Below the pieces are notes generated by a model that was not told the origin of the DNA, searched no databases, and was given only the letters and a program-made list of their open reading frames with translations. The position numbers and the translations under genes were made by a program. From a virus, in IMG/VR virus record IMGVR_UViG_3300005288_000100, positions 1 to 35,270 of that record: a DNA stretch of 35,270 bases; one strand, given 5' to 3'. Of the stretch, positions 2,563 to 28,188 are shown in pieces (position 1 is the stretch's first letter; every line of letters starts with the position of its first letter).

Positions 2563-3402
2563 ATGTCAAACGATAACCTGATTCCAATGTTTAAAGACCA
2601 GTGTGAAGTAAGCCAATCCAGTACGACTTATAATGCCTTTGATATCTATTTGGATGAGGACATTAAAGATCCAACGTACTATCGACAGGCGTTCCAAGTG
2701 TTGCGTTCTGCTCAACAGGGAGATTTGGTGCGAATCTATATTTCCTCAAACGGTGGTAATATGAACTCCGCTGCAATGTTCAAAAATTGCATTGAAAACT
2801 GTCAAGCAGACGTTATTGCAGTAATTGAAGCTGAGGCTTATTCAGCGGCCAGCTTGATTGCACTTTCTTGCTCGGGTATTGAAGTAAAGCCATATGCCAC
2901 TATGATGTGCCATTCGGCCGCATTTGGATCTGGTGGCATCGTGCAGAATGTTCGTGACCACGTTGAGTTTGTTGGTCGTAATGCTGAAGCGCTTATGGAA
3001 GAGATTTATCAGGACTTCCTCACCCCTGATGAGTTCATCGATTTGAAGCGTGGGCGTGAAATCTGGTTGGATCATATTCAAATTGGCGAACGTCTTGATA
3101 CAATGTTCGAAGCTCGCAATGCTAAAGGTTGTGGTAAAGAAGGCTGTACCGAATGTGGACCCCAACCTTCTGACGACTTCGAAGATATTGAAGACTTCGA
3201 TCTTGAAGCCCTGATTGCTGAAAAGGTAGCCGAAGGTATCGCACTACACGAGAAAAAGAAATTGGCTGCTGAAAAGAAAGCAAGTCGTGCAAAGAAACCA
3301 AACACCAAAACCCAAGCTGTGATGGATGCTACAGATAAGGGCGAGGATTTGATCCACTTTGACAGTAAAGAAGCACTTTTTGAAGCTCTTGATCTAAAAT
3401 AA
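2563..3402 (+). CDS. ClpP/crotonase-fold serine protease-like protein
   Basis: A 279-residue protein. The first 180 residues follow the ClpP fold: IYISSNGGNMNSAAM (58-72) is the substrate-binding loop and strand, AYSAAS places the nucleophile at Ser94, and MMCHSA gives His117. Asp170 is a possible third residue. ClpP-like peptidases in phages are used either as prohead maturation proteases or as auxiliary proteases; no capsid genes are in view, so the role is open. The C-terminal third is not ClpP: a Cys cluster (C190, C195, C198), a strongly acidic stretch, a lysine/alanine-rich linker and an acidic tail. The ribosome site lies in the end of the preceding gene. Confidence 0.85.
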   Translation: MSNDNLIPMFKDQCEVSQSSTTYNAFDIYLDEDIKDPTYYRQAFQVLRSAQQGDLVRIYISSNGGNMNSAAMFKNCIENCQADVIAVIEAEAYSAASLIALSCSGIEVKPYATMMCHSAAFGSGGIVQNVRDHVEFVGRNAEALMEEIYQDFLTPDEFIDLKRGREIWLDHIQIGERLDTMFEARNAKGCGKEGCTECGPQPSDDFEDIEDFDLEALIAEKVAEGIALHEKKKLAAEKKASRAKKPNTKTQAVMDATDKGEDLIHFDSKEALFEALDLK

Positions 3403-3406
3403 AACC

Positions 3407-3435
3407 TTGCACTAAATACGTGGGAGGTTTACAAT
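3407..3435 (+). promoter_or_regulatory. sigma70-like promoter
   Basis: TTGCAC (3407-3412), a 17-base spacer, then TACAAT (3430-3435). It lies immediately after the ClpP-like stop codon and about 30 bases before the first of the small genes. It overlaps a perfect inverted repeat (3420-3443). Confidence 0.7.
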
Positions 3436-3443
3436 ACTCCCAC
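3420..3443. promoter_or_regulatory. inverted repeat across the promoter: operator or terminator hairpin
   Basis: GTGGGAG (3420-3426) and CTCCCAC (3437-3443) form a perfect 7-bp inverted repeat with a 10-base loop that contains the -10 box TACAAT. No T-run follows, so it is less like an intrinsic terminator than an operator or a structured 5' element. Confidence 0.5.
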
Positions 3444-3470
3444 TAACCCAAACACAAAGGAGAGAATATT

Positions 3471-3566
3471 ATGATCAGTCAAACCGAAATCGCAGAACTA
3501 CTCGCAGAACAACAAGATGACCTTGCTGCACAGGAAAAGTCAGAGAATTCTGAGGAGGAAGAATGA
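3471..3566 (+). CDS. small acidic protein (31 aa)
   Basis: A 31-codon gene with a good ribosome site (AAAGGAG, eight bases upstream). It is the first gene behind the promoter at 3407. The product is very rich in Glu and Gln, probably one helix. The stop overlaps the start of the next gene by four bases (ATGA), and the GAGGAGGAA at its end also serves as that gene's ribosome site. No family recognised. Confidence 0.6.
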   Translation: MISQTEIAELLAEQQDDLAAQEKSENSEEEE

Positions 3567-7287: not shown

Positions 7288-7473
7288 ATGAATCATGACA
7301 GAGTTTGTTTATTCAAAGATGGCTCTTGGTGCTGGAATTATGAATATTCCCTGAAGGAGTTTGAACAGAAAGGAGAATACCAAGAAATCATCTTAGGCCA
7401 AGGGTGGCTTGACAGAGACGTTTCAATTATGCTTGCCGAATATTACAGTGAAAACACACATTTATTTGATTAA
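7288..7473 (+). CDS. unknown protein (61 aa)
   Basis: A 61-codon gene just after the previous stop, with a weak ribosome site, so it probably depends on coupling. It is rich in Trp, Tyr and acidic residues. It is the last gene before the terminator/promoter element at 7479. Confidence 0.6.
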   Translation: MNHDRVCLFKDGSWCWNYEYSLKEFEQKGEYQEIILGQGWLDRDVSIMLAEYYSENTHLFD

Positions 7474-7478
7474 TTCTA

Positions 7479-7518
7479 AGCCTCTGGTCTTGACGGACTG
7501 GAGGCTTTCTGGTCTAAT
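7479..7518 (+). promoter_or_regulatory. hybrid terminator-promoter: -35 box forms the hairpin loop
   Basis: The 11-base arms 7479-7489 and 7496-7506 pair (nine Watson-Crick pairs and two G-T), leaving a six-base loop that is exactly TTGACG (7490-7495). TTTCT follows the stem. From the same TTGACG a 17-base spacer leads to TCTAAT (7513-7518), a sigma70-like promoter about 30 bases before the next gene. One sequence thus appears to end the upstream transcript and start the next. The same design recurs on the minus strand at 19166-19200 and 27937-27971. Confidence 0.72.
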
Positions 7519-7546
7519 GGGGTTACTAATTTAAAGGAGCAATTTA

Positions 7547-7891
7547 ATGTCAATTTGTAGATGGTCCAGCATGAACTGGCAATGTGATCTATACTGCTAC
7601 GAATCTGAACAGGGGTATGTGACGCATGTGGCAGTTAACCGGACTATGGGAGATATCCCTAAAGTAGACTCATCCCTGTTCTTAAATCACACAGAAGAAA
7701 ATGAACAAGAGTTCTTCAAACAACATAAAGCACAAATGAAGTTCTTAGAAACTGCTGAACGTAGACCAATTGGTTTGAAATATGACGGACAGACATTCTA
7801 TGATGATAAGGAAACATTCTTGTCTCGACTAGAAATGCTCAAACAAGAAGGTTATAGGTTTCCAGAGATTACGCAGGAGGATTTAGAGTGA
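7547..7891 (+). CDS. conserved-type phage protein of unknown function (114 aa)
   Basis: A 114-residue protein starting SICRWSSMNWQCDLYCYESEQGYVTHVA, a form I associate with a widespread unnamed phage family. AAAGGAG lies seven bases before the ATG. The second half is helical and charged. It is the first gene behind the promoter at 7490-7518, and overlaps the next gene (GTGA). Confidence 0.8.
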   Translation: MSICRWSSMNWQCDLYCYESEQGYVTHVAVNRTMGDIPKVDSSLFLNHTEENEQEFFKQHKAQMKFLETAERRPIGLKYDGQTFYDDKETFLSRLEMLKQEGYRFPEITQEDLE

Positions 7892-14994: not shown

Positions 14995-15603
14995 TTAAGA
15001 GTGGTAATTCTCGTACCGTTCAATCAAAGCTTTAGCTACACGCTCATCTGTCTGTTCAGCAGCTAGGATGTAGGCTTGTTCCAATTTAAACGTAAGCCAT
15101 GCTTGATGAGCTTCTTCTGGGGTATCATAATAGCCAAGATGCTTATTTTCACCAGTGTTGACATCTCTACATCTTGCAAACAGCCTTTTAGCCCACTTGT
15201 GATAGGTTACTCCAAGGGGCCAATCTCCCTGTGCAGTGTCACGAATAAAGGAGTTCACTTTTTGTGTAATAAAAACGCATGTGTCTGGACCATAGATTTT
15301 GTTATCGAGTAATAGTAGATCCTTGTCTAACTGTTTACCCTCCCAATCTTGCTGTTCCATCCAAGTTTTGAAGTTGCTAAAAGTCAACCACTCATGTGCT
15401 ACTGAACAACCTACATAAGATGGAAATTTTTCTTGTACTTTTTCTGAGTAGCACCTTGAAAGCATATCCTTCCAACGAGCATAGAAAGGGCAACTTATCA
15501 TTACTTTCTTACCATCTTCAAGTGTAATATGTTTACCAACGTTATAGTCAGCATCATTAATACCAACACCCATCACTAGCTTCTCTCTATAATTCAATTT
15601 CAC
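14995..15603 (-). CDS. homing endonuclease-like protein with AP2-like C terminus (copy A)
   Basis: A 202-residue protein, clearly paralogous to the gene at 19191-19823: both share GVGINDADY, CPFY..W..ML.RCYSEK, EWLTFS.F..WM.QQ.WEGK.LDKD, Y.P.TCVF..QKVNSFI and the C-terminal PEEAH.AWL.FKLEQAY.LAAEQ.DERVAKALI. The central block fits phage HNH-related endonucleases; the C terminus (WPLGVTYHKWAKRLFARCRD...LGYYDTPEEAHQAW) fits an AP2-like DNA-binding domain. GTG start with AAGGAG upstream. It stands behind a terminator-like hairpin (15624-15644) without its own visible promoter, so it is probably expressed only by read-through. It is the last gene of the minus block. Confidence 0.75.
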   Translation of the reverse strand: MKLNYREKLVMGVGINDADYNVGKHITLEDGKKVMISCPFYARWKDMLSRCYSEKVQEKFPSYVGCSVAHEWLTFSNFKTWMEQQDWEGKQLDKDLLLLDNKIYGPDTCVFITQKVNSFIRDTAQGDWPLGVTYHKWAKRLFARCRDVNTGENKHLGYYDTPEEAHQAWLTFKLEQAYILAAEQTDERVAKALIERYENYHS

Positions 15604-18506: not shown

Positions 18507-19127
18507 TTACACCTCACTTAAAGTTTTAATGTATCGTTTGGTTGCTTGGCTGTATCGTACCAATGTTTTAGTGGTCTTGCAAGCGATCTGTAGAATCTTT
18601 TTAAAACTATTTGTGCGAGGTAAATCGTCTATCCAGCTCACTCCACAAGGTGTGGCTACCTCTGTGTGGGTGTAGCCTACATCACACGAATTGTAGGTAG
18701 TTTCTTCGCTAACTTCCTCATGTTCTTCCTCTGTTTTGATAGGCTTTGCAGAGATTGCTTTCTTGTACAACATTTCCGCACGTTGAAGCTTAGCGAAAGC
18801 TACATCTCTGAGCAAGCTGTAGTCATTCAGACTAAATTCACCAGCACGATAGGCTGTCTCAAGCTCAAGGATTTCTGAGCGTAGTTTTTCTAGTCTAGAG
18901 GCTTGAGGTAAGATGCGTTGTTTGAGTGGTACTTTAGTTGGAGTCTTACCCATACGAGCAGCAATAGCAGAGTCGCTAAAGGCGTTTACGTTTGCTTTAC
19001 CGTAGATGTCATACAAGGGGATGGCTTCAACAGATCGAACATTGCGTGAACCACACTGATTTCCATCGTAGTCAGGCTCGTTTTCGTGGGAGCCTACCCA
19101 AGTTTGTAAAGCGAAATAACGACTCAT
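18507..19127 (-). CDS. unknown protein (206 aa)
   Basis: A 206-residue protein, the first gene behind the promoter at 19166-19194. AGGTAGG lies before the ATG. It contains a central helical segment (SRLEKLRSEILELETAYRAGEFSLNDYSLLRDVAFAKLQRAEMLYKKAI), an acidic linker and a basic C terminus (CKTTKTLVRYSQATKRYIKTL). No known family. Confidence 0.7.
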   Translation of the reverse strand: MSRYFALQTWVGSHENEPDYDGNQCGSRNVRSVEAIPLYDIYGKANVNAFSDSAIAARMGKTPTKVPLKQRILPQASRLEKLRSEILELETAYRAGEFSLNDYSLLRDVAFAKLQRAEMLYKKAISAKPIKTEEEHEEVSEETTYNSCDVGYTHTEVATPCGVSWIDDLPRTNSFKKILQIACKTTKTLVRYSQATKRYIKTLSEV

Positions 19128-19165: not shown

Positions 19166-19200
19166 ATTCTAACCCAACGAAAACAGGCCGTCAAGCGGCC
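19166..19200 (-). promoter_or_regulatory. hybrid terminator-promoter element
   Basis: On the minus strand GGCCG-CTTGA-CGGCC (19200-19186) forms a hairpin followed by TGTTTT, ending the homing endonuclease-like transcript; the TGA stop of that gene lies inside the loop. The -35 box TTGACG (19194-19189) spans loop and stem, and TAGAAT (19171-19166) follows after 17 bases, giving a promoter for the gene at 19127. Confidence 0.75.
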
Positions 19201-19823
19201 TTTTCAATATAAATAAAGTTTTCATACTTATCAATCAAAGCTTTTGCTACACGTTCATCTTTTTGTTCTGCTGCAAGGACGTAGGCTTGTTCTAGTTTGA
19301 AAGCAAGCCAAGCTTTGTGTGCTTCTTCTGGGGTTAGGAATAGGCCTAAGTATTCTTGCTTCCCTGTCACCACAGATTTACACCGTGCCTGAAACTTATC
19401 ACCCCGTTTGTGAAAATCTACACCTATAGGCCACTCGCCACGGCTGAAGGTATTCTCAAGTATGAACGAATTAACTTTCTGATCCACAAATACACAAGTT
19501 TCAGGACTATATACTTTGTTATTCAGAAAGAGGATATCTTTATCCAACTCTTTACCCTCCCAGTTTTGTTGAACCATCCAAACTCTGAAGGTTGAGAATG
19601 TTAACCACTCTTTTGTTACATAACAACCCTGATAAGTTGGGTACTTTATTTGAGACTTCTCACTATAGCATCGTCCCAACATAGCACTCCACTTCCTATA
19701 GAACGGACACTTCCACACAAGCTTTTGTTTTTGCTTACCATTTACATAGCTGATTGTCTCCATTACTTGTGTAACATAATCAGCATCATTGATGCCTACA
19801 CCAAACAGCAATCTTTTAGCCAC
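19191..19823 (-). CDS. homing endonuclease-like protein with AP2-like C terminus (copy B)
   Basis: A 210-residue paralogue of the gene at 14995-15603, colinear over nearly its full length and most conserved in GVGINDADY, CPFY, RCYSEK, EWLTFS, WEGK.LDKD, TCVF..QKVNSFI and LAAEQ.DERVAKALI. The central block is HNH-endonuclease-like; the C-terminal 80 residues are AP2-like. GTG start with GGGAAGGGAA upstream. It is flanked by a terminator (19836-19859) and the terminator-promoter element that contains its stop codon, so it appears inserted at a transcription-unit boundary with little expression of its own. Confidence 0.75.
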   Translation of the reverse strand: MAKRLLFGVGINDADYVTQVMETISYVNGKQKQKLVWKCPFYRKWSAMLGRCYSEKSQIKYPTYQGCYVTKEWLTFSTFRVWMVQQNWEGKELDKDILFLNNKVYSPETCVFVDQKVNSFILENTFSRGEWPIGVDFHKRGDKFQARCKSVVTGKQEYLGLFLTPEEAHKAWLAFKLEQAYVLAAEQKDERVAKALIDKYENFIYIEKAA

Positions 19824-27510: not shown

Positions 27511-27903
27511 TTATAAACAGAGTAACATACCCAACCGCTTATACTCATCATCCATACACATAGCAAATGGCTCAAGCTCAGCTTTCTTGATATTGCATGG
27601 AAGCTTGTCTAGTACAGATAATAGCTCAGATGTCTTATGAATCTTTCCTGTGCGGAATGTGTATTCTGAGCACAATGCTTTGAAGTGAGCATAAAGCCAT
27701 TGGTAGTTGGCTGAGGTTGAGCGTGTCCAGATAGCAGATGGATGATTTCGGTGGGTAGGCTTGTAGCCAACTTGCACACCGTCAAGAACAAAGTGAGTAG
27801 TAGACAACATCTGAGCACTTTCAATTATCATTTTATTTACCAAAATGTTGGGTAAATTCTGTGCTGACTTGATTGGGCACTGATCAGATACAAAGATATT
27901 CAT
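27511..27903 (-). CDS. conserved-type phage protein, remote Pyr_excise-like pattern (130 aa)
   Basis: A 130-residue protein (NIFVSDQCPIKSAQNLPNILVNKMIIESAQMLSTT, then GYKPTHRNHPSAIWTR, then YQWLYAHFKALCSEY). I associate it with a widespread phage family. Its order of elements, K-S-A near the start, a Q-x-L helix, N-H-P, then a W/Y-rich helix, recalls the pyrimidine-dimer glycosylase family (Pyr_excise), but I cannot show catalytic residues, so this is only a hint. It is the first gene behind the promoter at 27937-27965; the ribosome site is weak (AGAAG). Confidence 0.72.
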   Translation of the reverse strand: MNIFVSDQCPIKSAQNLPNILVNKMIIESAQMLSTTHFVLDGVQVGYKPTHRNHPSAIWTRSTSANYQWLYAHFKALCSEYTFRTGKIHKTSELLSVLDKLPCNIKKAELEPFAMCMDDEYKRLGMLLCL

Positions 27904-27936: not shown

Positions 27937-27971
27937 ATCATACAGACAAAAGAAAAGGCCGTCAAGCGGCC
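27937..27971 (-). promoter_or_regulatory. hybrid terminator-promoter element
   Basis: On the minus strand AGGCCG-CTTGA-CGGCCT forms a hairpin followed by TTTCTTTT, a convincing terminator for the gene at 27979. TTGACG (27965-27960) in the loop and 3' arm is the -35 box, and TATGAT (27942-27937) follows after 17 bases, a convincing promoter for 27903. Confidence 0.85.
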
Positions 27972-27978
27972 TGTAGGG

Positions 27979-28188
27979 TTATTTCAGTTCTTCTAAGACG
28001 TAGTCATTCTGACTATCAAACAATCCTTTCCCATCTGTAAAATAGTCACGGTATTTGTAGTGCATATGAAGGGCAAAAGCATTCTTAGCAGCTCCAGATG
28101 TTGCCCAACCACATTTACTGCCAAACTTGATAAGTCTTCCTGTTGACACTTCACGGATTACAAATACCGTTGTATATTGTTCTTTCAT
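27979..28188 (-). CDS. unknown small protein (69 aa)
   Basis: A 69-residue protein (KEQYTTVFVIREVSTGRLIKFGSKCGWATSGAAKNAFALHM), strands then a helix, resembling small phage proteins that begin with a beta hairpin. TAATG overlap upstream. It ends just before the terminator-promoter element. Confidence 0.68.
   Translation of the reverse strand: MKEQYTTVFVIREVSTGRLIKFGSKCGWATSGAAKNAFALHMHYKYRDYFTDGKGLFDSQNDYVLEELK

Follow-up and report, generated by a model that had tools for sequence, protein, structure and literature searches.

Candidate interlocked terminators and promoters with the −35 hexamer in the hairpin loop across a phage clade

The boundary between the 61-aa and 114-aa genes

The window, by which we mean the whole stretch of DNA analysed, is a virus record of 35,270 bases. 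A near-identity DNA search against known phages gave no match to it. Its 114-aa protein is matched best, among annotated phages, in Pseudomonas phage vB_PsaM_M1 (89 kb; listed under Ounavirinae), and the ligase gene is nearest to the ligases of 90-100 kb Pseudomonas phages. Relatives were collected via the ligase, the 114-aa protein, the phosphatase and the 61-aa protein.

On the plus strand, the boundary between the 61-aa gene and the 114-aa gene is occupied by a composite element that holds a hairpin, its loop, a spacer and a −10 hexamer within 41 bp (7478-7518), in the order AAGCCTCTGGTC-TTGACG-GACTGGAGGCTT-TCTGG-TCTAAT (Table 1). The hairpin begins 4 nt past the stop codon of the upstream gene, and the element ends before the AAGGAG/ATG of the 114-aa gene at 7547. 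The initial annotation had described a boundary with no gap between units, and the site does fall exactly between the stop codon and the next ribosome site. It had also assigned the same bases to both a hairpin and a promoter, with which the anatomy at 7478-7518 agrees. The loop TTGACG, the 17-base spacer and TCTAAT are as it read them at 7479-7518, but the arms comprise 12 bases from 7478 and not 11.

Table 1 Coordinates of the features at the three composite elements of the window
Feature	Position	Strand	Remarks
61-aa gene upstream	7288..7473	+	Stop TAA 7471-7473; orthologue precedes the element in 11 relatives
Hairpin 5′ arm AAGCCTCTGGTC	7478..7489	+	From sequence; compensatory changes among relatives
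Loop = −35 hexamer TTGACG	7490..7495	+	5/6 to consensus; TTG invariant in 12/12 sites
Hairpin 3′ arm GACTGGAGGCTT	7496..7507	+	With the TCTGG after the arm, forms the 17-base promoter spacer
Short T-run TTTCT, weak U-tract	7506..7510	+	Putative end of upstream transcript; d-score −0.9
−10 hexamer TCTAAT	7513..7518	+	TATAAT is the relatives' consensus; C at position 2 unfavourable
Ribosome site AAGGAG and ATG of downstream gene	7534..7549	+	114-aa gene 7547-7891
Second composite AGGCCG[CTTGA]CGGCCT	19166..19201	−	−35 TTGACG 19194-19189, 17 bases, −10 TAGAAT 19171-19166
Third composite AGGCCG[CTTGA]CGGCCT	27937..27972	−	−35 TTGACG 27965-27960, 17 bases, −10 TATGAT 27942-27937

The stem contains 12 pairs, ten Watson-Crick and two G-U, and a 61-nt stretch at the site folds at −21.3 kcal/mol (z = −4.06), a value that none of the shuffles equalled. 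Energy and covariation both indicate a stable, G+C-rich RNA hairpin of the kind found in intrinsic terminators, and it is located just 3′ of a gene and in that gene's direction. The −35 hexamer agrees with TTGACA at five of six positions, and the 17-base spacer lies within the 16-18 range of sigma-70 promoters.

Neither half is strong by conventional scoring. The stem is followed by TTTCTGG, giving a classical terminator d-score at the border of acceptance; L004, a near relative whose loop and −10 are those of the window, scores 12.5, and the T-rich tails of L010-L012 give 24.6-35.1. The T-run is too short for a strict terminator scan to list the window site. A strict sigma-70 promoter scan does not list it either, because TCTAAT, the −10 shared by the window and L004, lacks the A at position 2 that is normally the most important base of the hexamer. 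No Rfam family matches within the window at the curated threshold. Scanned loosely as a single sequence, the window gives three sites against 0-5 in shuffles, which is not above chance; the window alone is thus marginal, and significance comes from the relatives and from the clade-wide scan. Judged by its C at the key −11 base and its short U-tract, the window copy is among the weaker predicted composites, and at 7490 its promoter is probably weak and its terminator moderate.

Pairing and hexamers among relatives

A hairpin with TTG at the loop follows the 61-aa gene in each of the 11 relatives that carry the gene. Together with the window this gives 12 orthologous sites, all of which have a −10-like hexamer except that of L006. 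The sites differ widely in their letters, as seen in L003 (AGCCTCTGGTG[TTGACG]CACTGGAGGCT..TATTCT), L005 (GAGCCCAATGCC[TTGACT]GGTGTTGGGCTT..TATCCT), L007 (GGCCTGTTTCCG[TTGACT]TGGAAGCGGGCC..TACAAT) and L010 (GAGGGCTTGGGCA[TTG]TGCTTGAGCCCTC..TATAAT). Over all 12 sites, the mean identity of the 5′ arm is 0.40 and that of the TTG is 1.0, and the column consensus reads TTGACT-17-TATAAT. For the analysis of covariation, the seven sites with the same loop size were aligned. In this alignment 97.6% of stem cells are paired, many of them as G-U, and 10 of the 12 stem pairs have changes on both sides; pairing as high was reached in 0 of 500 shuffles, and slid registers gave 31-57%. The low identity of the arms, their covariation and the constant TTG together indicate that the pairing and both hexamers are kept and that the stem letters are free. 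Conservation of the stem together with the −35/−10 pair in relatives, on which the initial annotation had made its proposal depend, is therefore strongly borne out.

Several gene families follow the orthologous site among the relatives, which indicates that the element is tied to the end of the 61-aa gene. In L012, the orthologue of this gene (3378-3566) contains an in-frame stop, and the composite after it is intact. In L006 (4808-4852), the hairpin is retained and the −10 has decayed to GAGACT; this composite may have reverted to a plain terminator.

The L006 site implies that the promoter is not always needed, and it can be read together with the missing key A of TCTAAT and the failed strict promoter scan as a sign that the window element is a terminator only, with TTGACG and TCTAAT the remains of a decayed promoter or an accidental likeness to one. 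We consider this unlikely. The TTG is constant in 12 of 12 sites while the stem around it has been rewritten, the consensus of the sites is that of a promoter with a 17-base spacer, and the exact TCTAAT of the window recurs in L004. A peak at the same spacing across the clade, described below, also speaks against a terminator alone.

Recurrence and fixed spacing across the clade

The position of promoter-like sites relative to the loop of T-tailed hairpins was scanned in the window and 14 relatives. Twenty-seven promoters have their −35 at the loop, two of them (the window site and L004) counted only by allowing TCTAAT as an exception, compared with about two per equal bin at other offsets. 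A clade set of 13 records (0.92 Mb) contains 133 T-tailed hairpins, 29 of which are composites; each of 12 dinucleotide shuffles gave 0-2. The initial annotation had proposed to look in relatives for inverted repeats enclosing TTGACG with TANNNT 17 bases on; hairpins with TTG at the loop and a −10 at that distance do recur. In the clade, TTG is the commonest loop triplet, with 50 hairpins, compared with 25 for its reverse complement. Where TTG stands at the start of the loop (42 hairpins), a −10 follows at exactly 17 bases in 23, at 16 in two and at 18 in two, and other spacings from 5 to 44 give at most four each. Clade hairpins without TTG at the loop show no peak of −10 hexamers at spacing 17. 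Among the 29 composites, the spacer is 17 in 25. The clade scan showed no enrichment of antisense promoters with the −35 in the loop (3 against 1.85).

Most composites are found 2-22 nt past a co-directional stop codon and 23-46 nt ahead of a start codon. By their neighbouring genes the composites fall into 18 clusters. Three of these are doubtful for lying inside ORFs; the arrangement occurs at about fifteen places in the clade. The matches set aside as probable chance occurrences are G002 5792, G009 89247 and G011 7060, three of the 29, which lie within ORFs of 79-439 codons.

That the arrangement recurs and is maintained despite changing hairpin letters indicates that it is real and selected. 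Its anatomy, its conservation with stem covariation, the 17-base rule and the recurrence, all directly observed, suggest that the element is very probably an intrinsic terminator interlocked with a sigma-70 promoter, a compact form of operon punctuation. We infer from sequence that both termination and initiation occur, as well as the sigma factor used. A polymerase arriving from the upstream gene would transcribe the hairpin and the T-run and stop at about 7508-7512. Host polymerase with the main sigma factor would then start the next unit from a −35 formed by the hairpin loop and a −10 that follows the T-run, with an expected start at about 7525, some 7 nt after the −10. The two signals can fit together because their constraints do not clash: the promoter would require its two hexamers and leave the spacer sequence free, and the terminator would require the stem and the T-run and leave the loop free.

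Such an overlap may also have a kinetic role, one that would add to the interlocked terminator and promoter without excluding it. In E. coli, most polymerases stay on the DNA after intrinsic termination and reinitiate nearby in 37-55% of cases in vitro, and reinitiation is expected to depend on the distance between terminator and promoter (PMC6978380). Judging from the coordinates, this distance is zero in the composites, and a terminating polymerase would cover the promoter. A polymerase that has terminated could stay on the DNA and restart at the promoter beneath it; upstream transcription would then feed the downstream unit, and successive operons would be chained by a fixed hand-over of polymerase. 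This is possible, if doubtful: saving space in dense genomes accounts for the overlap equally well, and at a second locus G006 has terminator and promoter in tandem, which indicates that overlap is not required. That selection for such a hand-over, beyond the saving of space, explains the recurrence at about 15 loci in one clade is similarly a tentative suggestion.

The initial annotation proposed a switch, in which a polymerase reading through the hairpin would occlude the promoter and the choice would lie between read-through and fresh initiation. In principle, occlusion by a passing polymerase would be unavoidable in this layout, but the same applies to any promoter within a transcribed region, and neither a regulator nor an alternative fold or antiterminator site was identified. 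A switch therefore seems improbable to us.

The other composites of the window and the question of an operator

The window carries three composites, at 7490 (+), 19194 (−) and 27965 (−). In the second, the stop codon TGA of the upstream ORF (19193-19191) sits in the loop; for this ORF, 19191-19823 (−), the stop codon shares its bases at 19191-19195 with both the hairpin loop and the −35. The ORF belongs to a family of genes of about 200 aa with copies at 19194-19823 (−) and 15004-15585 (−), which share 59% identity, and with many copies in relatives; Pfam gave no match for the first copy (19194-19823). The third composite is placed between ORFs 27979-28188 and 27511-27903. A CACATCA-like stretch directly after the −10 is seen at window 27965, G003 16206, G004 31357 and 36141, and G011 68113, and is possibly a conserved initially transcribed sequence or a regulator site.

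The boundary before gene 18507-19127 (−), which the second composite occupies, exists in three states among relatives. Five records (the window, G003, G010, G011 and G017) have the fused element, and the genes upstream of it mostly differ among them. In G006 terminator and promoter are two distinct elements, the terminator first and the −35 downstream of it, and G009, G005 and G008 have a promoter-like site and no hairpin. These states indicate that the promoter goes with the downstream gene and that a hairpin surrounds its −35 in some genomes only. The hairpin would appear where an upstream unit must be ended.

This variation bears on a further reading of the repeats, in which the palindrome around the −35 would bind a dimeric regulator, or extrude as a DNA cruciform, and would not act as an RNA hairpin. 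Operators commonly lie over the −35 as a palindrome, and the shorter GGCCG-CTTGA-CGGCC class of composite has little stem energy. The stems differ between loci and relatives, as the low arm identity shows, which argues against a common operator; what the sites have in common is pairing, not sequence. G-U pairs, of which the stems have many, are tolerated in an RNA stem but disrupt a palindrome in DNA. The T-run is found downstream on the same strand as the promoter, and the sites come after stop codons. The promoter without any hairpin in G009, G005 and G008 also speaks against a protein operator. We regard an operator as very unlikely, whereas the three states of the boundary fit an interlocked terminator and promoter.

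Related layouts in other phages and in known systems

Single copies of this layout, with TTGACA in the loop, are present in PAK_P3 (72358), KPP10 (69435), phiPsa374 (84666) and KIL4. As in the clade, the −35 lies in the loop of a hairpin and the −10 follows at 17 bases, or at 18 in phiPsa374; unlike in the clade, one copy was found per genome instead of several, and the stems are others. All four are co-directional and lie between genes where the annotation was checked. The PAK_P3 record labels its composite as a putative terminator only. In the KIL4 record (NC_042054), an annotated terminator (79365-79392) overlaps an annotated promoter (79376-79404), each predicted independently by the depositors; the passages of the KIL paper that deal with terminators and promoters report them separately and leave the overlap without remark (PMC4791379). 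The same record has annotated promoter/terminator overlaps at 63968-64002, 67064-67101 and 91446-91481, in which the promoter begins upstream of the terminator.

The statement of the initial annotation that no phage element of this kind is described is thus nearly right, but the KIL4 record annotates an overlapping terminator and promoter of the same layout, and a bacterial case comes close. In Clostridium saccharoperbutylacetonicum, the region of the promoter P_asr overlaps the terminator loop of the sol operon, with a start mapped by primer extension (PMC9402939). Like the clade element, P_asr places a promoter region over the loop of an intrinsic terminator. It differs in driving an antisense RNA back over the operon, and is a single bacterial case, not a co-directional unit boundary; the passages on it describe no conserved 17-base geometry (PMC9402939). 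PAK_P1-like phages carry 41-nt promoter repeats, TTGACA-N17-TAgAAT (PMC4309531). These too are repeated sigma-70 promoters of related Pseudomonas phages, but it is their sequence that is conserved, and the source reports neither a hairpin nor a terminator for them (PMC4309531). In the clade element the stem sequence is free and the pairing alone is kept.

An ordinary tandem of terminator and promoter, as in G006, has the same function of ending one unit and beginning the next, but uses separate bases, with the −35 downstream of the terminator. One terminator is common to neighbouring units in the E. coli ampC attenuator / frd terminator; there the promoter lies upstream and the hairpin attenuates it, whereas the start expected for the clade element lies downstream. 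Neither part of the element is new in itself: single overlaps already appear in annotation, and for one antisense promoter placed in a terminator loop the start has been mapped. We found no described co-directional promoter in a terminator loop in open papers. A recurrent, co-directional, base-exact interlock that a phage clade maintains through compensatory changes is, in those papers, apparently undescribed.

In annotation and in engineering, a terminator and a promoter are normally treated as distinct parts. In the present case a single 41-bp segment appears to serve both roles with base-exact geometry, the loop being the −35 and the T-run leading into the −10. It offers natural material for testing in the living cell whether a polymerase that has terminated is reused at a neighbouring promoter, so far a single-molecule question. 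The rule is simple (TTGNNN in the loop and TANNNT 17 bases on), and it would add promoters to phage annotations that list only a terminator, such as that of PAK_P3.

A scan for T-tailed hairpins returned no composites in Felix O1, T5 and phiK7A1, and none in phiPsa374 or KPP10 either; it gave one doubtful match in T4. In rV5 there is one match with a TTGCAA loop and TATACT at 16. When viral contigs were searched with the −10 placed at the correct spacing, 11 of the matches were true hairpin composites, among which several unrelated stems occur; a control with the −10 moved five bases downstream retrieved one. In a sample of viral contigs, 15 hairpins have a TTGAC loop, two of them with a −10, and the reversed-loop controls number 26, none with a −10. 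TTGAC is therefore not generally enriched in the sampled loops, which suggests that the enrichment is clade-specific. A recurrent AGCC..TTGACA..GGGCTTT..TATAAT stretch in many contigs was rejected as a composite, as it is not a hairpin. Many contigs (L401, L403-L405, L409, L411-L413, L415, L418, L420-L423, L425 and L426) share a near-identical promoter-like stretch without a hairpin, AGCCAAAATTTGACAATAAATGGGCTTTCTGCTATAAT.
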